A stretch of DNA of 58,105 nt from Bacteroidaceae bacterium (GTDB lineage Bacteria; Bacteroidota; Bacteroidia; Bacteroidales; Bacteroidaceae). The translations under genes were made by a program, and so were the position numbers. The stretch spans positions 1 through 58,105 of the forward strand of contig JAFYMP010000020.1 in NCBI GenBank assembly GCA_017556585.1, given 5' to 3'. A model generated the notes under the pieces. That model did no database searches and was not told the DNA's origin. It saw only the letters and a program-made list of their open reading frames with translations. Positions 33,178-44,435 of the stretch are shown here, piece by piece. Each line of letters opens with the position of its first letter. Position 1 is the stretch's first letter.

Positions 33178-33235
33178 CTTAGTTTTAATTTTTAATATTA
33201 AACTAATGAAAAGGGTAAGACTACAGTTCGAACTC

Positions 33236-33312
33236 CACTCCCTACGTCGGTACTAACCGAATCAGGTTCCTAGGGTATAATCTCAGCCTCATTAAAAGAG
33301 GCACCCCCTTTC
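33236..33312 (-). promoter_or_regulatory. TPP riboswitch (THI element)
   Basis: Reading the minus strand, the conserved THI blocks are in order: GGGGGTGCC, then GAGGCTGAGA, then ACCCT, then GAACCTGATTCGGTTAGTACC, then GACGTAGGGA. These are the pyrimidine- and pyrophosphate-binding halves of the aptamer. It lies between a -7 box at 33322-33329 and the receptor ATG at 33177. The region after the aptamer holds a 10-base palindrome (33225-33234), probably part of the expression platform. It should repress thiamine uptake when TPP is plentiful. Confidence 0.95.
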
Positions 33313-33321
33313 ATTCGCCGG

Positions 33322-36241: not shown

Positions 36242-36664
36242 TTATAAGAAGAAATCAAGTGCTTCGGTGTAACCTTCAAACCCTTTACCGCAGATAGTTT
36301 TAGCGGCGTAGAGAGAAATATATGAGAACTTTCTAAACTCTTCGCGACTGTTAATGTTGCTCAGGTGTACCTCTACAGTGGGCAGACCAACAGCTTTCAA
36401 TGCATCAAGGATAGCTACACTGGTATGTGTATAAGCTGCCGGATTAATTATAATTCCATCAAAATGGTTGTATGCTTCTTGAATTTTGTCAACTATACAA
36501 CCTTCATGATTGGACTGATATATCTCAACTTCAAGTCCCTTTAATACAGCTGCTTTATTGATACATTCCACCAAATCTGCGTATGTACTTTTGCCGTAAA
36601 TGTCAGGCTCTCTAATGCCTAAAAAATTCAGATTAGGACCATTTATAACCAATATCTTTTTCAT
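36242..36664 (-). CDS. aroQ: Type II 3-dehydroquinate dehydratase
   Basis: A 140-residue cytoplasmic enzyme of the shikimate pathway, converting 3-dehydroquinate to 3-dehydroshikimate. The family opening ILVINGPNLNFLGIREPDIYG holds the catalytic Arg and Tyr (about R18 and Y23). The His of EVHLSNINSREEFR and the NPAAYTHTSVA segment complete the active site. Length is typical. Its ATG overlaps the stop of the acyl-ACP thioesterase gene by 4 bases. It is the last gene of the aro operon. Confidence 0.96.
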   Translation of the reverse strand: MKKILVINGPNLNFLGIREPDIYGKSTYADLVECINKAAVLKGLEVEIYQSNHEGCIVDKIQEAYNHFDGIIINPAAYTHTSVAILDALKAVGLPTVEVHLSNINSREEFRKFSYISLYAAKTICGKGFEGYTEALDFFL

Positions 36665-37443
36665 TGTCTGATTTCAAGATTATCGTTTAACATATTTGTT
36701 ACGGCTTCCGGTTTGTCTGCATATCTTATTGTAGCCAGACAAGATACTCTTTCGCCTGCCGTAACAATACGGAAGTTCCACAAATCCGGCTCTTCTGTGG
36801 CATAAACAGTACATTCCATACTTTCTCCTATGAAAGATTCCTGCTTGAACCAAATACCCAATTCCGTTACTGTATGCGATTCCTGATACTCTGTGGGCAG
36901 TGCGGCAAGGCAAGCATACAGATAGGTCATGTTTGTAACGTGATGATTAAAATCTGCATCACTCTTATTTGTAATGTGCGTATGGTTGTATGCAACCTCT
37001 TTTGATACAGGTTGTTTGTGTCTGTGAGTACCAAACACCATTTCATCTGCAACTTCTATGTTGTTCAGCAGAGTGTTGGCTCTTATAGGGGTGCGCTTTG
37101 CTATATCCAATATAGCCCAGGTACTGTCACCGTATGCAACCACATTGTTTTTGTGCCAAATTCTGTATTCGGCATACACTTTTACAGCTGGAGCTTCAGG
37201 AACCCATAGTTCTACACGTACCGTTTCGCCCCAAAATGGTTGAACAGGCAGCATGTGAAACGTAAAATCGGAAATAATCCACATTTTATCCTCCCTTCTT
37301 AAATCAAAAGCCGCACAATGATGTTTTGCCATATATGAAGCAAAACAATCTTGAAATATGGCTGCAATGCCCGCCGGAGAGAGTCTGAAATCTTCGTCCA
37401 TAGTGGCATTCATTACGCAGTAGTTCTTATTACAATATTTCAT
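36661..37443 (-). CDS. Acyl-ACP thioesterase
   Basis: A 260-residue double hot-dog protein of the acyl-ACP thioesterase family (plant FatA/FatB relatives), which releases free fatty acids from acyl carrier protein. The N-terminal hot dog runs from about residue 5 to 140 (with DFTFHMLPVQPFWGETV). The second contains the active-site motif DADFNHHVTNMTYL (D-x-N-x-H). It is embedded between aroA (one base between genes) and aroQ (4-base overlap), an unexpected place for a lipid enzyme, so its expression would follow that of the aromatic operon. Confidence 0.88.
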   Translation of the reverse strand: MKYCNKNYCVMNATMDEDFRLSPAGIAAIFQDCFASYMAKHHCAAFDLRREDKMWIISDFTFHMLPVQPFWGETVRVELWVPEAPAVKVYAEYRIWHKNNVVAYGDSTWAILDIAKRTPIRANTLLNNIEVADEMVFGTHRHKQPVSKEVAYNHTHITNKSDADFNHHVTNMTYLYACLAALPTEYQESHTVTELGIWFKQESFIGESMECTVYATEEPDLWNFRIVTAGERVSCLATIRYADKPEAVTNMLNDNLEIRQ

Positions 37444-37444
37444 T

Positions 37445-38716
37445 TTAGTGGAATTTGCCGCCTAAGTTAATATAATCTTTGCAAAAATCGGGATACGATT
37501 TATCAATACATTTCATATTGTCTATTTTTGTGTTGCCGTGGGCCACTGTAGCCATAATGGCTGCCGATGCTGCAATTCTGTGGTCTGCGGCCGAACATAC
37601 ACTTCCGCCAACAGGCATGCCGGGATATATGGTAAGCGAATTTTCTGTGGCACAACTCTTTATTCCGAATGCTTGTAGCATACGCATAGTAGTCTCTACG
37701 CGGTCGCTCTCTTTCAAACGCAGTCTGCCTATACCGGTAAAGGTAGATGGAGAATTTGCCATAGCAGCAGCAACAGAGAGTATAGGGACAGCGTCGGGTA
37801 TATTGGAACAATCCGTTTCAATACCTTTTAGTTTAGAGGGATACGCAATAGTATAACCGTTTTCGGTCTCTATTCTGGCACCCATAGCGCGTAAAACATC
37901 CACCACCTTTTTGTCGCCCTGAACGGAGTGGTGGTAATCTATACCATTACATTCTATAGGTTCTTTACCTATGCAACCAGCCACTAACCAGAATGATGCA
38001 CTTGACCAATCACCTTCTGCAAAAAGTTCCGATGGAGTGGCGAATTTTTGACCTTCAGGAATAAAATAACCGTAATCTGTAGATTCTACCTCTATGCCGA
38101 AAAGCTTAAGCACACTTATAGTTAAATCAATATATGGTGTGCTTTCGCGTCTGCCTGTCACAATAATTCTGCACTCCTGTTCAGTTACCGGCAGTGCCAT
38201 AAGCAGCCCGGATATGAATTGCGATGAGACTCCGCCATCTATGGTGTATGTGCCACCCGGCAACAGACCTTTGCAGAGTAGGGGAAGAGTACCATTGGCA
38301 CTTAGATCTATTCCGTGTGCAGTCATCTCTTCATACAGAGGTGATAACGGACGCTCCGGCAGTCTGCCTTCGCCACTAAATTCGCAGTATGCTCCAAGTG
38401 CAGCTGCAACCGGAAGCATAAAACGCAAGGTAGAGCCGCTTTCGCCGCAATTCAGTTTGTGCAGAGTGTTGCCAATGTCGTTTCTGCTGAGTGGCTGAAC
38501 AGTTATATAGCTTTCTGTAATTTCTATCTCTGCCCCCAATGCCTTCAGACAGTTTGCGGTGGCTGTAATATCGTTACCGGCACCTTTGCAATCTATGCGA
38601 ACCTGCTTGTTGCCCAATGCAGCACATATCATCATTCTATGTACCACCGATTTTGACGATGGAATGGTGATTTTACCTTTTAAAACGTGCGGAACAAGTG
38701 TCTGTTCGGTCATCAT
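37445..38716 (-). CDS. aroA: EPSP synthase (3-phosphoshikimate 1-carboxyvinyltransferase)
   Basis: A 423-residue two-domain enzyme joining PEP to shikimate-3-phosphate. Seen motifs: IPSSKSVVHRMMICAALG at the N-terminus (the usual S-K-S-x-x-x-R), LNCGESGSTLRFMLP (the LxxGNAGTAxR equivalent, here CGESGST), GGVSSQFISGLLMALP, and RLRLKESDRVE near residue 335. The GESGST form at the PEP site differs from the classical GNAGT of glyphosate-sensitive class I enzymes and is usual in Bacteroidota. It overlaps pheA by 4 bases. Confidence 0.95.
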   Translation of the reverse strand: MMTEQTLVPHVLKGKITIPSSKSVVHRMMICAALGNKQVRIDCKGAGNDITATANCLKALGAEIEITESYITVQPLSRNDIGNTLHKLNCGESGSTLRFMLPVAAALGAYCEFSGEGRLPERPLSPLYEEMTAHGIDLSANGTLPLLCKGLLPGGTYTIDGGVSSQFISGLLMALPVTEQECRIIVTGRRESTPYIDLTISVLKLFGIEVESTDYGYFIPEGQKFATPSELFAEGDWSSASFWLVAGCIGKEPIECNGIDYHHSVQGDKKVVDVLRAMGARIETENGYTIAYPSKLKGIETDCSNIPDAVPILSVAAAMANSPSTFTGIGRLRLKESDRVETTMRMLQAFGIKSCATENSLTIYPGMPVGGSVCSAADHRIAASAAIMATVAHGNTKIDNMKCIDKSYPDFCKDYINLGGKFH

Positions 38717-39855
38717 ATAATTTCAATGTAAGTGCCAAAGTATTTGAACTGTTCTTCGCAGTGATCAAGTTCGCTTATCAAAGATGCAAACTTGTCGTTA
38801 TAAATAGATAACTCTATGTCGAAATAGAACATAAATTCAAAATCTCTGTTTGGTATAGGACGGCTTTCCAGTTTTACTAAGTTGGCTCCAATGGCACTGA
38901 AACGTGACAGTACACTGAACAGTTTGCCCGGTTTGTTTGGAATAACCATCATAATACTTGTTCTGTCTGCACCAGGATAGATTTTCAGATCTTTTGTAAT
39001 GCAGATAAAACGGGTATGGTTGCTGTCATAGTTCTGAATACCATCTGCAAGAACAGACATATTGTAGAGTTCTGCACAACTTCTGGACGATATAGATGCC
39101 ATAGTACCTGTGGTATCTTTTGAAACCATGGATGCTGCAATTGCAGTGTTTTCGCAAGGAATAACCTGAACATCTTTCAGATTATCAAGGAAATGTGAGC
39201 ACTGACGTATTGCCTGTGGATGAGAATAGATGGTCTTTACATTTTCTAACTTCATACCTTTTGTACCCAAAAGCAGATGGTCTATTCTTACTCTTGTACT
39301 GCGAACTATATGAACATCATATTTTACCAGCAGATCGTAAATCTCGTTAACCGAACCGGCGCTGGAGTTTTCAATAGGCAGAATACCATATTGACAGAAT
39401 CCTTCAGAAACCATTTTCAGCACACCTTCAAAAGTTTTTGCCCACATAATCTCCGGTACTTCGAACAGACGTTCTGCTGCAGCCTGTGAATATGCACCTT
39501 CTCTTCCCTGACAAGCCACCATGGCACGTGCCGGGAATGCTTCCGGTTGTGCGTGGATAATGCTTTCCAACTCTTTATACAGCGGAGAATCTTTCTCTTT
39601 GTGCATAGATTCGTATGCCTTACTTATATCGAATATGGAACGATACAATGAACGCCCGAATTCCTCCATGTGTGGTGGCAGAGCCTTTGAAATACGGGTT
39701 AGAACCTGTCTTTCACGTGCAGCATTGTTTATAGGTTCGTTATTGCTTCTTTTAAGTTCGCCAATCTTATTGACAATATTCATTCTCTCCTGGAACAACT
39801 TGCAGATATTGTTATCCACGTTGTCAATCTCTTCTCTCAATTTGTCAAGTTCCAT
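38713..39855 (-). CDS. pheA: Bifunctional chorismate mutase-prephenate dehydratase (P-protein)
   Basis: A 380-residue three-part enzyme for phenylalanine synthesis. Residues 1-85 are an AroQ-class chorismate mutase (LREEIDNVDNNICKLFQERM ... KIGELK). Residues about 105-280 are prephenate dehydratase (ACQGREGAYSQAA, ILPIENSSAGSV, and the catalytic NHTRFICI). Residues about 295-380 form an ACT domain with the Phe-binding ESRPIP motif, so Phe feedback is expected. This layout matches the proteobacterial P-protein. It sits between aroB (3-base gap) and aroA (4-base overlap). Confidence 0.95.
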   Translation of the reverse strand: MELDKLREEIDNVDNNICKLFQERMNIVNKIGELKRSNNEPINNAARERQVLTRISKALPPHMEEFGRSLYRSIFDISKAYESMHKEKDSPLYKELESIIHAQPEAFPARAMVACQGREGAYSQAAAERLFEVPEIMWAKTFEGVLKMVSEGFCQYGILPIENSSAGSVNEIYDLLVKYDVHIVRSTRVRIDHLLLGTKGMKLENVKTIYSHPQAIRQCSHFLDNLKDVQVIPCENTAIAASMVSKDTTGTMASISSRSCAELYNMSVLADGIQNYDSNHTRFICITKDLKIYPGADRTSIMMVIPNKPGKLFSVLSRFSAIGANLVKLESRPIPNRDFEFMFYFDIELSIYNDKFASLISELDHCEEQFKYFGTYIEII

Positions 39856-39858
39856 ATC

Positions 39859-40914
39859 TTAAAGTTTTATTCTGTTCAGTAAATTGTAAAATTCTTCCGT
39901 TGAAATGGTGTGTAATACACATTTTCCTATAGATTCGGGTAATACAACGGTAATGTTATTTTTGTCTCTCTTTTTGTCAGATAAAGCCACCTTATAGATT
40001 TCTGTGGCAGAGTAGGGGCAATATGTATCAAAACCGTACATTTCAACGATGTTTTTTATAGGTTCTACCACATCTGCATACCCACACTCTTTACCCAATT
40101 TTGCGGCAATAACCATACCTTTTGCCACAGCTTCTCCATGTGTAATGGTAAAGTTGCTCAGTAGCTCTATGCTATGACCAATGGTGTGGCCAAAATTCAG
40201 TAGCTGACGTTCTCCCTTGTCAAATTCATCTGCAGCCACAACATCTCTTTTAATCTCTATACATCTGGAGATAATCTGTTCCAAAAGAGCACTATCCTTT
40301 TTTAATAGCTTGTTGTATAGATCTTTATCAAGTATAATACCGTACTTTATAACCTCTGCAAAACCATCGCGCATAATGTTTGCAGGCAGAGTGTTCAGAG
40401 TGCTGATATCGCAAAATACCAAAGCCGGTTGATGAAAAGCTCCTATCAGATTTTTGCCGGCAGATATATCTACAGCTGTCTTTCCCCCCACAGAACTATC
40501 TACTGCAGCAAGCAGGGTGGTAGGAACCTGTATGTATTTTATTCCGCGCAGATAGATAGCCGATGCAAATCCTGCCATATCACCTATAACACCGCCTCCA
40601 AGTGCCAGAACCATATCGGAACGGGTAATCTGTTCGCTTGCCATAAAGTTTATGAATGATAGAACAGAATCCATGTTTTTGCTGCTTTCACCATTTGGAA
40701 TGGTATGTTTAATGCAACGGAAACCATTAGCTTTTAGTGACTTTATAACTGTATCGGCATATAGAGCATCTACAATATCATCGGTAAGAATGGCTATACT
40801 GCATCTGTCAAACAAATTAGACATTACATTACCCAATTCTGGCAACATACCGTTGCAAACCATAACATTGTACTGATGTGATGCATTCACCTTTATTATG
40901 TTGTATCTATCCAT
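39859..40914 (-). CDS. aroB: 3-Dehydroquinate synthase
   Basis: A 351-residue NAD- and metal-dependent enzyme making 3-dehydroquinate from DAHP. The nucleotide-binding GGGVIGDMAGFASAIYLRG, the PTTLLAAVDSSVGGKTAVD segment and the metal-binding stretch GFAEVIKYGII and LNFGHTIGHSIE (zinc His residues) are all intact. Length is typical. It follows tyrA by 4 bases and precedes pheA by 3 bases in the attenuator-controlled operon. Confidence 0.97.
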   Translation of the reverse strand: MDRYNIIKVNASHQYNVMVCNGMLPELGNVMSNLFDRCSIAILTDDIVDALYADTVIKSLKANGFRCIKHTIPNGESSKNMDSVLSFINFMASEQITRSDMVLALGGGVIGDMAGFASAIYLRGIKYIQVPTTLLAAVDSSVGGKTAVDISAGKNLIGAFHQPALVFCDISTLNTLPANIMRDGFAEVIKYGIILDKDLYNKLLKKDSALLEQIISRCIEIKRDVVAADEFDKGERQLLNFGHTIGHSIELLSNFTITHGEAVAKGMVIAAKLGKECGYADVVEPIKNIVEMYGFDTYCPYSATEIYKVALSDKKRDKNNITVVLPESIGKCVLHTISTEEFYNLLNRIKL

Positions 40915-40918
40915 ATCT

Positions 40919-41755
40919 CTATTTCTCTGATAGTTCTTTTGCTATTCGTCCGTCACGTAACAGATTGCAAAGATATTCATTGTTTTCGTCATTTAAGGCT
41001 TTTGCATACTCTTTCAGATTATCAATCAGCAGATTGATCTCTTTTAGCAAATTATCTTTGTTCTCTAAAAACAGTTCGGTCCACATATTTTCATTTAACC
41101 AAGCCACGCGCGTAAGATCTCTAAAACTGCCGGCGCTGTAACCTTTGTGTTCCTGTGCACTTGGACTTTTTATAAATGCATTAGAGACTACATGAGGCAG
41201 TTGCGATGTATATGCTATCATACGGTCGTGGTCATCAGCCGTGGTAAATACCACCTTTTTGAATCCCATTGGTCTGATAGCCTGCTTGATTTTGTCATAT
41301 AGGTTTATATCATCAAATTCAGGTGGTACAATAATCATAGAAGCATTATTGAACATAGTAGCCTTTGAATTCTTGAATCCTGACAGATGATTTCCAGCCA
41401 TTGGATGACCGCCAACGTATGTAAAGCTATACTCTTTAGCCAGTTTGAAACCAATAGAGGTAATGCCGCTTTTAGTGCCGCAATCATCAATTACCAGACC
41501 ATCTTTTGGAAAGTGGGCTGCATTCAGTTGCAAATATTCAATGGCAGCCTTTGGGGTGATGGCAATATGTATAACGCTGCACTGTTTCAGGCTGCTTGCA
41601 GTAAGTTCAGCATCAACAGTTCCGGATATAATGGCGTAGCTTGTAATGGATAGATTGCTGTCATAAGCCAGCACCTTCCATCCGGCAGCTTTATATGCCT
41701 TGGCAATAGAACCACCTATTAAACCTAATCCTATAACTCCAACTATCTGTTTCAT
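40919..41755 (-). CDS. tyrA: Prephenate dehydrogenase
   Basis: A 278-residue NAD(P)-dependent enzyme of tyrosine synthesis. The Rossmann motif VIGLGLIGGSIAKAYK is at residues about 6-21. The active-site stretch GGHPMAGNHLSGF carries the catalytic His, and SQLPHVVSNAF follows. It has neither a chorismate mutase fusion nor a C-terminal ACT domain. The gene lies 2 bases after aroF and 4 before aroB, consistent with tight cotranslation. Confidence 0.95.
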   Translation of the reverse strand: MKQIVGVIGLGLIGGSIAKAYKAAGWKVLAYDSNLSITSYAIISGTVDAELTASSLKQCSVIHIAITPKAAIEYLQLNAAHFPKDGLVIDDCGTKSGITSIGFKLAKEYSFTYVGGHPMAGNHLSGFKNSKATMFNNASMIIVPPEFDDINLYDKIKQAIRPMGFKKVVFTTADDHDRMIAYTSQLPHVVSNAFIKSPSAQEHKGYSAGSFRDLTRVAWLNENMWTELFLENKDNLLKEINLLIDNLKEYAKALNDENNEYLCNLLRDGRIAKELSEK

Positions 41756-41757
41756 AT

Positions 41758-42768
41758 TCAGAACAGTTTTCTTATTTCACTCACTTTTGCCGATACAGTA
41801 CTGAACTGTGAAGGAGTTAGTGACTGTGCGCCATCGCAAAGTGCGTGTTCAGGGTCGTTGTGAACCTCTATTATCAGACCATCGGCACCTGCAGCTGTTG
41901 CAGCCATAGACATAGATTCTACCAGTGAACGTTTGCCTGTAGCATGGCTTGGATCTACTATTATAGGCAGATGTGAAAGCTCTTTTACCATAGGAATAGC
42001 AGCCAGGTCAAGAACATTGCGTGTGTATGGGTCGTAACTGCGTATGCCACGTTCGCACAGAATAATGTTTTCATTACCTTCTGACATAATATATTCGGCA
42101 CTCATAAGCCACTCTTTAAGTGTACTGGAGAGACCGCGTTTAAGCAGAATGGGCTTTCTTAGTTTACCCAATTCTTTCAGCAGTTCAAAGTTTTGCATAT
42201 TTCTGGCACCCACCTGAATAAGATCTACATCTTCAAACATATCTAAGTGGCTGGCACTCATTATTTCGGTTACTATAGGTAATCCTGTAGCCTCTCTTGC
42301 CTTTCTCAATAAATCCAGACCTTCGCCACGCAGTCCCTGAAAATCGTAAGGCGAAGTGCGCGGTTTGAACGCTCCACCTCGCAGCAGGGTAGCACCGGCT
42401 GCTTTTACATCTTGCGCTATACCTATAATCTGTGCTTCCGATTCTACTGAACAGGGACCGGCTATTATAGCAAAATTACCTCCACCTATCTTTACAGTAT
42501 TTTCTCCGCTGCCAATTTCTACCACTGTGTCTGTAGGGTGGAAACGGCGGTTTGCACATTTAAACGGATCGCTTATACGGGTAACGTGGTCTATAATTTC
42601 CAAACCGTTAAGCAGGTCTATATCTATTCTGCTGGTATCGCCAATAAGTCCTATAATGGTCTGATACTGTCCTTCTGAAAGATGAATGCCTACACCTTGA
42701 GCTTCCAACCACTTAATCAAACTATTCTTCTGGAGTTCCGATACTCCGCTTTTAAGTACTGCTATCAT
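41758..42768 (-). CDS. aroF: DAHP synthase, type I-beta with N-terminal regulatory domain
   Basis: A 336-residue first enzyme of the shikimate pathway (PEP + erythrose-4-phosphate). The N-terminal ferredoxin-like domain (about residues 1-70) is the allosteric module that, in the Thermotoga homolog, binds Tyr and Phe. The catalytic barrel has [39 protein letters not shown] and [14 protein letters not shown]. It is the first structural gene of the aro operon. Its ATG lies 28 bases after the U-tract of the leader terminator, so both transcription (attenuation) and enzyme activity appear set by Phe/Tyr. Confidence 0.96.
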
Positions 42769-42794: not shown

Positions 42795-42826
42795 CAAAAA
42801 AGCCCGAATCTTTCAGACCCGGGCTT
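42795..42826 (-). terminator. Leader terminator (attenuator) before aroF
   Basis: On the minus strand a 12-bp stem (42826-42815 with 42811-42800, two wobbles) with a GAA loop is followed by six T residues (42801-42796). It lies between the leader peptide and aroF, so readthrough is needed for operon expression. Its 5' arm can pair instead with the last codons of the leader peptide. Confidence 0.88.
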
Positions 42827-42863
42827 CAATTTGCTATATCATTTATACACATACAACAATACG

Positions 42864-42923
42864 TTACCCGGCGAAACGTCTGGTAAAGTAAAAATAAAAG
42901 AAGTATGCGCTATTGTTGTTCAT
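42864..42923 (-). CDS. Aromatic leader peptide, 19 aa
   Basis: A short reading frame from the ATG at 42923 to the TAA at 42864-42866, encoding MNNNSAYFFYFYFTRRFAG. Codons 7-13 are all Tyr or Phe (three Tyr, four Phe), and codon 17 is Phe. It begins within about 10 bases of the -7 box, so it is the first thing translated on the aro transcript. Codons 15-19 (42881-42867) are complementary to the 5' arm of the downstream terminator. A ribosome finishing the peptide would cover them and let the terminator form. Stalling at Tyr/Phe codons would free them to act as antiterminator. Confidence 0.88.
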   Translation of the reverse strand: MNNNSAYFFYFYFTRRFAG

Positions 42924-42931
42924 ATCGACGG

Positions 42932-42939
42932 CAAAAGTA
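42932..42939 (-). promoter_or_regulatory. -7 box of the aro operon
   Basis: TACTTTTG on the minus strand. The transcription start is expected near 42926, giving almost no untranslated leader before the leader-peptide ATG. Confidence 0.65.
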
Positions 42940-43097: not shown

Positions 43098-44435
43098 ATG
43101 AGATACGGTACACTTTCCAGACAACTAAGCAGATTGGCAGGTCCAATACTGGTGGAGACATTTCTTATTATGGCGTTGGGTGCGGTAGATACTTTTATGC
43201 TAAGCCGTCATTCAGATAATAGTGTTGCAGCAGTAGGTTTGGTTAACCAACTTGTAAACTTGGTCTTTATAATTTTTGAAGTAATCTCTTTAGGTACATC
43301 TATTTTATGTTCGCAATATATTGGTGCTAAACTACATAAGAGAGTAATACAGGTAGTTGGTATATCTATTGTGTTCAACTTTTTTAGTGGTTTGCTGTTT
43401 AGTGCATTGCTCTATTTTAAAGCCGACTGGTTGCTTGGAATTATGGGAGTTCGTCCAGATATTATGCCGGAAGCTATGGCTTATATGCGCATAGTTGGAG
43501 CCTTTGCATTTTTACAGGCTGTATCGCTTGCTATATCTGCGGCTTTGCGCAGTGCAGATAAAGCCAAATACCCAATGATGGTGTCGGGTGTGGTGAATTT
43601 GCTCAATGTAGTGGGAAATTATGCACTCATTTTTGGTAAGTTTGGACTGCCTGCACTTGGTGTTCGCGGTGCTGCTATATCTACTGTAATATGTCGTGGT
43701 GTTGCTCTTTTACTCCTGTTTATAATATTGTTCAAAAAACATATTCCAAAGTTTCCAAAAGAATTTTTTAACCCTTTTCCTTGGTATGAATTAAAGAAAT
43801 TGCTAAAGATTGGTATTCCATCGGCAGGCGAACAGATGTCTTACAGCTTTTCTCAGGTGGTTATTACCTATTTTATTAATATGCTTGGCAATGAAGCTCT
43901 TGCTACACGAACATACTGCCAGAACATTGTTATGTTTACCTATATGCTATCCATAGCTTTAGCACAAGGCGGTGCTATTCAAATAGGTCATTTGGTAGGT
44001 ATGAAGAAGACTCATGCAGCATATACTTTAGGAAAGCGTGTTCTGCGTATTTCTGTGTTTACCACTGTTGCTTTATCGCTTGTTACTGCTGTACTTGGAA
44101 AGCCCATCTTTAATATGCTGACAGATAATCCGGAAATTATAGCTATGGGAACTGCTGTGCTGTGGGCAGATGTTTTGGTAGAAAATGGTCGCGCCATAAA
44201 TCTGTTCAGTGTAAATGCACTGCGTAGTTCAGGAGATATTTATTTTCCTGTTACCATAGGCATAATTTTCTGCTGGACGGTTTCTGTAGGTTGCAGTTAC
44301 CTGTTTGGTGTAGCATTGGGTGGTGGACTGGTAGCTTTGTGGTGCGCTCTGTTCTTGGACGAAAACATACGTGGTATAATCTTTATACATCGCTGGAAAA
44401 GCAAACGCTGGGCCACAAAAGGATTCGTTAAATAG
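43098..44435 (+). CDS. MATE family multidrug/Na+ antiporter
   Basis: A 445-residue inner-membrane protein with twelve hydrophobic segments in two homologous halves, as in MATE exporters that expel cationic compounds in exchange for Na+ or H+. Family features: the N-terminal LAGPILVETFLIMALGAVDTFML, NLVFIIFEVISLGTSIL, and the second-half repeat IGIPSAGEQMSYSFSQVV with GNEALATRTYCQNI. Length is typical. It stands alone. Substrate unknown; the organism's sodium pump (nqr operon) could supply a Na+ gradient for it. Confidence 0.9.
   Translation: MRYGTLSRQLSRLAGPILVETFLIMALGAVDTFMLSRHSDNSVAAVGLVNQLVNLVFIIFEVISLGTSILCSQYIGAKLHKRVIQVVGISIVFNFFSGLLFSALLYFKADWLLGIMGVRPDIMPEAMAYMRIVGAFAFLQAVSLAISAALRSADKAKYPMMVSGVVNLLNVVGNYALIFGKFGLPALGVRGAAISTVICRGVALLLLFIILFKKHIPKFPKEFFNPFPWYELKKLLKIGIPSAGEQMSYSFSQVVITYFINMLGNEALATRTYCQNIVMFTYMLSIALAQGGAIQIGHLVGMKKTHAAYTLGKRVLRISVFTTVALSLVTAVLGKPIFNMLTDNPEIIAMGTAVLWADVLVENGRAINLFSVNALRSSGDIYFPVTIGIIFCWTVSVGCSYLFGVALGGGLVALWCALFLDENIRGIIFIHRWKSKRWATKGFVK

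Follow-up and report, generated by a model that had tools for sequence, protein, structure and literature searches.

The DNA ahead of the aromatic amino acid operon aroF-tyrA-aroB-pheA-aroA in a gut bacterium of the Bacteroidaceae (GenBank contig JAFYMP010000020.1; the whole analysed stretch of 58,105 nucleotides is called the window here) holds a short frame rich in tyrosine and phenylalanine codons, followed by a terminator. This raises the question of whether transcription of the operon is set by the ribosome that would translate the frame, as an earlier note on the window had proposed. Our analysis indicates that the region is very probably a classical ribosome-mediated transcription attenuator, which would sense charged tRNA-Tyr and tRNA-Phe and control these genes.

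The aroF leader and its operon

The features of the locus are collected in Table 1. The -7 box is of the TAnnTTTG type, the consensus quoted for Bacteroidota sigma-A in PMC9723704, and the leader frame runs on the minus strand from the ATG at 42923-42921 through 19 codons to the TAA at 42866-42864. Box, frame and the Tyr or Phe at each codon from 7 to 13 are seen in the sequence just as the earlier note described them. The leader is the sole short ATG frame of the window with at least seven consecutive aromatic codons, and 40 Markov resamples of the window gave one such frame in total. The fold of the 128-nt leader was better than that of all 200 of 200 dinucleotide shuffles (z = -3.06).

The six-T tract (42801-42796) was confirmed, but in the fold of the window leader the terminator stem comprises 13 bp including G-U pairs, not the 12 bp first described, and 27 nt rather than 28 separate the tract from the aroF ATG at 42768. 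AGAC (42881-42878) and CCGGG (42871-42867) pair with CCCGGGTCT around a six-base bulge (duplex -13.3 kcal/mol), so the nine-base antiterminator of the earlier note holds in the window. It was rejected as a general feature, because GUC, the partner of the AGAC half, is confined to 2 of the 23 leaders of the genus, those of the window and of the almost identical L084; the other 21 keep the GCCGGG:CCCGG core alone. While this antiterminator and the terminator stand, a third helix had been overlooked, namely the protector formed by segments A and C, which was found by folding, RNAalifold and a permutation test. Segment B lies inside the frame or just past the stop, depending on the species, and the inner hairpin occupies part of it; three of the five pairs of this hairpin are invariant, so that covariation says little there.

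Table 1. Features of the leader and the aromatic operon in the window
Feature	Position	Strand	Basis
-7 box TACTTTTG	42932..42939	-	sequence; Bacteroidota sigma-A type TAnnTTTG
Leader peptide MNNNSAYFFYFYFTRRFAG and stop codon	42864..42923	-	sequence; genus conservation
Control codons 7-13, Tyr Phe Phe Tyr Phe Tyr Phe	42885..42905	-	sequence; genus conservation
Segment A (GCGCAUAC), 5' arm of protector helix, at head of control codons	42903..42910	-	MFE fold; RNAalifold; A:C permutation test
Inner hairpin UUACC (42886-42882) : GGUAA (42868-42864)	42864..42886	-	MFE fold; RNAalifold
AGAC, additional antiterminator pairing limited to the window lineage	42878..42881	-	GUC partner in 2 of 23 genus leaders
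Segment B core GCCGGG, 5' arm of antiterminator, last leader codons	42867..42872	-	duplex, permutation and covariation tests
Segment C (GUAUGUGU), 3' arm of protector helix	42847..42854	-	MFE fold; RNAalifold; A:C permutation test
Segment D, 5' arm of terminator and 3' arm of antiterminator	42815..42827	-	fold; duplex; three-way covariation
Segment E (3' arm of terminator) and U tract	42796..42811	-	fold; duplex
aroF, DAHP synthase with ferredoxin-like domain	41758..42768	-	Pfam DAHP_synth_1, DAHP_snth_FXD
tyrA, prephenate dehydrogenase	40919..41755	-	Pfam PDH_N, PDH_C
aroB, 3-dehydroquinate synthase	39859..40914	-	Pfam DHQ_synthase
pheA, chorismate mutase-prephenate dehydratase	38713..39855	-	Pfam CM_2, PDT
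aroA, EPSP synthase	37445..38716	-	Pfam EPSP_synthase
aroQ, type II dehydroquinase	36242..36664	-	Pfam DHquinase_II

Pfam agrees that the operon includes tyrA, pheA and a DAHP synthase, as had been claimed. That the sensed amino acids would be made by the regulated genes fits the window operon and the downstream genes of 9 of 10 relatives assigned with Pfam. The upstream neighbour (43098-44435, plus strand) is divergent from aroF; since the terminator stands between the promoter and aroF, it must serve the aroF operon and cannot be the terminator of another gene.

An acyl-ACP thioesterase-like gene (36661-37443, Pfam Acyl-ACP_TE) lies inside the operon between aroA and aroQ, and Rfam places a TPP riboswitch at 33222-33318 on the minus strand of the window (67 bits). 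The aroF type of the window also occurs in three further genera belonging to the family (56 of 399 genomes). Of its next best relatives, 71 of the best 80 matches are titled Clostridia or other Bacillota (about 61-69% identity), and the other DAHP-like genes of its own genome are 32% identical to it. Judged from these sequence relationships, aroF is likely to have been transferred horizontally.

Conservation in the genus and covariation of the helices

The window type of aroF, at an identity of at least 79%, is held by 22 of 37 genomes of the genus in 24 copies. When the upstream regions were compared, as the earlier note had advised, the frame and its aromatic codons were found to be kept at 23 of the 24 copies and also in distant pheA leaders. 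Codons 7 to 13 are aromatic in 160 of 161 cells of the 23 genus leaders, with Tyr, Phe and Trp interchanging, which argues that the class is kept rather than the residue; random single substitutions stay aromatic in 8 of 36 cases. A Trp codon is found in 19 of the 23 leaders and none in the window. The stop falls after 19 codons in 16 leaders and after 16 codons, before CCGGG, in the other 7; because CCGGG is kept while the stop moves, the RNA beyond the run is conserved independently of the reading frame.

The exception (L113 / L004, G012:C117) is a 90% identical aroF copy whose leader has been replaced by unrelated insertion-like sequence, with only the terminator end left; L113 belongs to a 100%-identity-neighbour genome that has this copy in addition. 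Upstream of aroF in sister genera (L115-L124), a promoter and a 5' UTR were found but an aromatic leader in none of 10 loci (the three-aromatic frames of L116, L118, L119 and L120 were judged by eye to be without run, B or terminator), which indicates that the leader is dispensable for the aroF operon. In another genome of the genus itself (G022), the chorismate mutase-prephenate dehydratase gene at locus L227 is of another type, and the Tyr-rich frame that precedes it, MFDARYYRYYYYRCFENGRS, differs from the aroF leader.

RNAalifold on the 23 genus leaders recovered an outer helix (GCAUAC:GUAUGC), the inner UUACC:GGUAA hairpin and the terminator. The pairs are mostly invariant or changed on one side, and with both sides changed in only 2 of 25 pairs, the genus alone gives weak structural evidence. 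Covariation was therefore assessed in 65 non-redundant leaders, taken from a total of 103 found in the genus and beyond it (L254 was excluded for a mis-set frame; the 103 retain L204 with a wrong frame, and L193 and L257 with starts a few codons late). A hairpin with a T tract is present in 103 of the 103 leaders analysed.

Cognate B:D duplexes averaged -14.5 kcal/mol and non-cognate ones -10.9 kcal/mol in the 65 leaders, and 0 of 5000 permutations were as good as the observed sum; the pairs are picked by energy in each sequence, so the permutations are the sole control, and relatedness is not wholly removed by them. Permutation within taxonomic sets gave 0 of 5000, and a strict set of 10 leaders gave 4 of 5000. 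The duplex was better than that of the leader's own shuffled region by more than 2 SD in 60 of 65 leaders, whereas only 27 of 65 ranked individually in the best tenth of non-cognates, because most leaders share the CGGGA/UCCCG core. For the protector helix, again 0 of 5000 permutations matched the cognate A:C pairing.

In the three-way test, D could be anchored in 62 leaders and not in the remaining three. There were 70 cells in which B, D and E all differ from the commonest letters with pairing retained; L145 provides an example (GAGCAGGA:UCCUGCUC), and L260 follows the same three-way logic with unrelated sequence. The compensatory change that the earlier note asked for was thus found in both alternative helices, and covariation backs a mutually exclusive antiterminator that shares an arm with the terminator.

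Ribosome position and rival explanations

With Tyr and Phe plentiful, the ribosome would pass codons 7-13, reach the stop codon and cover B, upon which D would pair with E and RNA polymerase would halt at the U tract. With Tyr or Phe scarce, it would stall on the run, covering A and freeing B, and the free B would pair with D before E is made, letting transcription continue into aroF. Helix A:C would act as a protector that encloses B when no ribosome keeps it open.

We modelled the masking with a ribosome footprint of 28 nt and the RNA cut before E. In this folding model of the window, the predicted probability of B:D is 1.00 when the ribosome stalls at codons 7-10; it drops to 0.62-0.70 when the stall is at codons 11-13, and to 0.00 for a ribosome at the stop. 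Among the 65 leaders, the stalled state exceeds the stop state by at least 0.3 in 41, no contrast is predicted in 24, and the order is reversed in 0. The 24 non-discriminating leaders have mostly long frames that extend past B; in these, the ribosome would have to move off B while still translating, or be released fast. For the window without a ribosome, the equilibrium probability of B:D before E is 0.99, from which it follows that the protector helix loses on thermodynamic grounds; for a leader that is not translated, read-through is predicted. When the full-length window leader was folded, the terminator won in every masked state, so that once E is present the choice is settled and the switch must be kinetic. 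Classical attenuators also choose their fold kinetically. The leader conservation, the compensatory helices and the masking model of the window all fit the claim of classical ribosome-mediated attenuation.

If the leader ribosome instead altered access to the aroF start, by control of translation or through Rho-dependent termination, no intrinsic terminator would be involved. Such a scheme could draw on the rare use of Shine-Dalgarno sites in Bacteroidota, described for F. psychrophilum in a part of PMC9723704, by which coupling might differ from that in E. coli. Yet a U tract follows the hairpin in the window and in the inspected leaders, D:E covaries with B:D, and the 25-41 nt between U tract and aroF across the genus put the aroF start outside the switch, so we consider this explanation highly unlikely. 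The strong conservation of the frame in the genus would also suit a conserved small protein with an ordinary terminator behind its frame, the aromatic run serving the peptide, for example in membrane insertion. However, the C-terminus is not conserved as protein, for the leaders differ in where they stop and in the frame that covers B, which itself is kept as RNA; Tyr, Phe and Trp interchange; and the pairing tests need a role for the RNA, which leaves the small protein a very slim chance.

It is barely conceivable that the element is a T-box, a riboswitch or a protein-binding attenuator that contains the frame by chance: the layout of terminator and antiterminator is, as generally known, common to such elements, but the sensing part here is a translated-looking aromatic run. 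At Rfam gathering thresholds only the TPP riboswitch, elsewhere in the window, was found, and a T-box, riboswitch or other Rfam element at the leader was rejected; with E up to 1, the leaders L001 and L088 had no match to any Rfam model. Attenuation by the translating ribosome remains the preferred explanation.

The window resembles the pheA and trp attenuators of E. coli in its amino-acid-rich leader, the arm shared by terminator and antiterminator, and the aromatic genes downstream; it differs in the place of the antiterminator arm B, which lies within the final codons of the frame or directly behind its stop. In E. coli trp the protector uses the same strand, whereas A:C here encloses B. 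The Rfam Phe_leader model (RF01859, gathering 55 bits) matched neither the window nor, at E up to 1, L001 and L088, and four pheA leaders scored 30.7-34.5 bits, below gathering. The kind of system is known, and this family is absent from the Rfam release searched.

Relatives across the phylum and the promoter-to-AUG gap

On a wider scale, the leader may be one of a phylum-wide and largely uncatalogued set of leader-peptide attenuators for Phe/Tyr, His, Trp and, locally, Asn, some of them in tandem. Translation of the aro and his leaders of the genus would start almost at the first transcribed base, timing the ribosome right behind RNA polymerase, and the element could be captured by a new operon, as here before a DAHP synthase that, outside the family, is most closely related to clostridial ones. 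We regard this wider reading as evenly poised between right and wrong; if true, it needs tight coupling of transcription and translation despite the scarce use of Shine-Dalgarno sites. Attenuation of this kind depends on a leading ribosome that keeps up with RNA polymerase, and a signature of it across Bacteroidota, a dominant phylum of the human gut, would make coupling there testable with ordinary reporters. It would also help to tell from sequence which of the aromatic, histidine and tryptophan operons of gut commensals respond to amino acid supply, and would offer a candidate new family for Rfam.

A covariance model of the 23 genus leaders (R1) was searched against 399 genomes of the family and strongly matched 20 genus genomes, along with 31 weak places. 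Among the 30 weak places inspected (all but G247:C22:270086), 24 are aromatic leaders and six are false positives (L147, L152 and L171-L174). A prephenate dehydratase-like gene follows 23 of the 24 leaders. The remaining leader, L151, stands with its terminator ahead of a non-aromatic, porin-like gene.

A second model built from these 24 leaders (R2) matched 110 of 393 genomes of the order, in 66 of 207 genera, and 31 of 316 genomes in a sample of the phylum; as the search filters lose weak matches, the R1 and R2 rates are lower bounds. The 30 order loci listed all have an aromatic leader, followed by pheA in 23, an aminotransferase in 5 and the contig end in 2, while ten further weaker or double regions comprised 8 aromatic leaders, 1 Asn leader and 1 false positive (L276). 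The inspected order set consists of these 30 loci and the ten extra regions, and that of the phylum leaves out G822; of the 27 phylum loci inspected, 26 are aromatic leaders and one, L259, is a false positive; DAHP synthase genes follow five of the 26. Downstream genes were assigned with Pfam in a sample of ten (PDT, DAHP synthase, prephenate dehydrogenase, aminotransferase) and otherwise named by eye from their N-termini. By the covariance models, the same architecture recurs across Bacteroidota before pheA, DAHP synthase, aminotransferase or tyrA. The pheA leaders translate B as VKRE or VRAG, or have it beyond a stop.

Two full units of aromatic leader and terminator stand in tandem before pheA in L269, L270 and L271 (one genus) and in L272 (another family). 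In L269 and L272 the second unit has no TAnnTTTG box within 90 nt upstream, and the B:D duplexes of L269 are stronger within units (-17.8 and -15.6 kcal/mol) than crosswise (-11.5 and -11.4 kcal/mol).

Leaders for other amino acids were observed as well. Upstream of hisG (L309-L338), short frames with at least three consecutive His codons occur in 26 of 30 loci, and an Asn-run control in the same regions gave 0 of 30; the window's own genome (L319) has the His leader MNSIVAKYHHHHTCG there. L278 carries the Asn-rich leader MTAINNNNLNNNALNNNPFRSTEVIMCKL and a terminator before asparagine synthetase A (Pfam AsnA), and L308 carries MRLNRNNSINNNSNNNLSYYYYCIVF before asnA. An Asn-run frame precedes asnA in 2 of 30 loci, one of them (L292) weak. 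Frames with an Ile/Leu/Val run were found before ilvD in 1 of 28 loci, and Thr/Ile-run leaders before homoserine dehydrogenase in 0 of 15 genus regions.

Bacteroid-trp RNA (RF01692, gathering 49 bits), listed in a part of Weinberg et al. 2010 (PMC2864571), is likewise from Bacteroidota and has a Trp-run leader (FWWW) before trpB-like genes in the six loci viewed, but differs from the window leader in amino acid, operon and sequence. The model matched 6 of 61 genomes, 4 above the cut-off, and had no match in the window or the rest of its genome; L263-L268 are such Trp leaders, with FWWW or YWWW before trpB-like genes.

For F. psychrophilum, a part of the transcriptome study speaks of strong clues of leader-peptide attenuation upstream of amino acid operons, and of conserved structured 5' elements without Rfam matches at pheA and hisG in Flavobacteriaceae (PMC9723704); unlike the analysis of the present family, its section on these elements gives no alignment, covariation or reach beyond Flavobacteriaceae. 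Short frames reminiscent of leader peptides are mentioned in a passage of PMC7366714. According to parts of it, the broad attenuator survey that Naville and Gautheret published in 2010 (PMC2965389) knew of leader-peptide systems only from Proteobacteria and Actinobacteria, and adds Firmicutes; its main text has no word beginning with Bacteroid. In the open-licence literature we found neither experimental proof of such attenuation in Bacteroidota nor any paper that describes the aromatic element as a family spanning the phylum. The earlier remark that attenuation is little known in Bacteroidota is accurate for print, but hints exist (PMC9723704, PMC7366714, RF01692), and the device occurs widely across the phylum. 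A putative Phe-Tyr-Phe leader at aroF of C. glutamicum is noted in a part of PMC4046766. The C. glutamicum leaders are from Actinobacteria, and their likeness to the window is by description only. The ilvB leader peptide of that species is reportedly made without a ribosome binding site, going by the title of a paper.

The near absence of a 5' leader before the ATG, which the earlier note called unusual, reflects a real short gap: the -7 box and the AUG are 8 nt apart in 21 of 23 genus leaders (9 in L100 and 39 in L085). With such a gap the 5' UTR can hardly exceed 8 nt, and the window transcript would begin a few bases from the leader AUG. Gaps of 8 nt are rare in the background: they follow 1 of 50 boxes across the redundant set of genus loci and 0 of 16 boxes in the window. 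About 3.7% of 5' UTRs are shorter than 10 nt in B. thetaiotaomicron, according to a part of PMC7366714. The pheA leaders of other genera have gaps of 19-40 (24 of 24), and none of the three genus Trp leaders has 8 nt (20-34). Of the genus His leaders, which are unrelated in sequence, 15 have an ATG frame; the gap is 8 in 12 of these, or in 13 when L329 is read from an ATG further upstream, whereas the own genome's His leader has 20. The fixed 8-nt spacing offers a natural test of near-leaderless initiation. L085, the lone genus leader with a long 5' UTR, has a hairpin (GGTGCCTGAA...TTCAGGCACC) between box and AUG.
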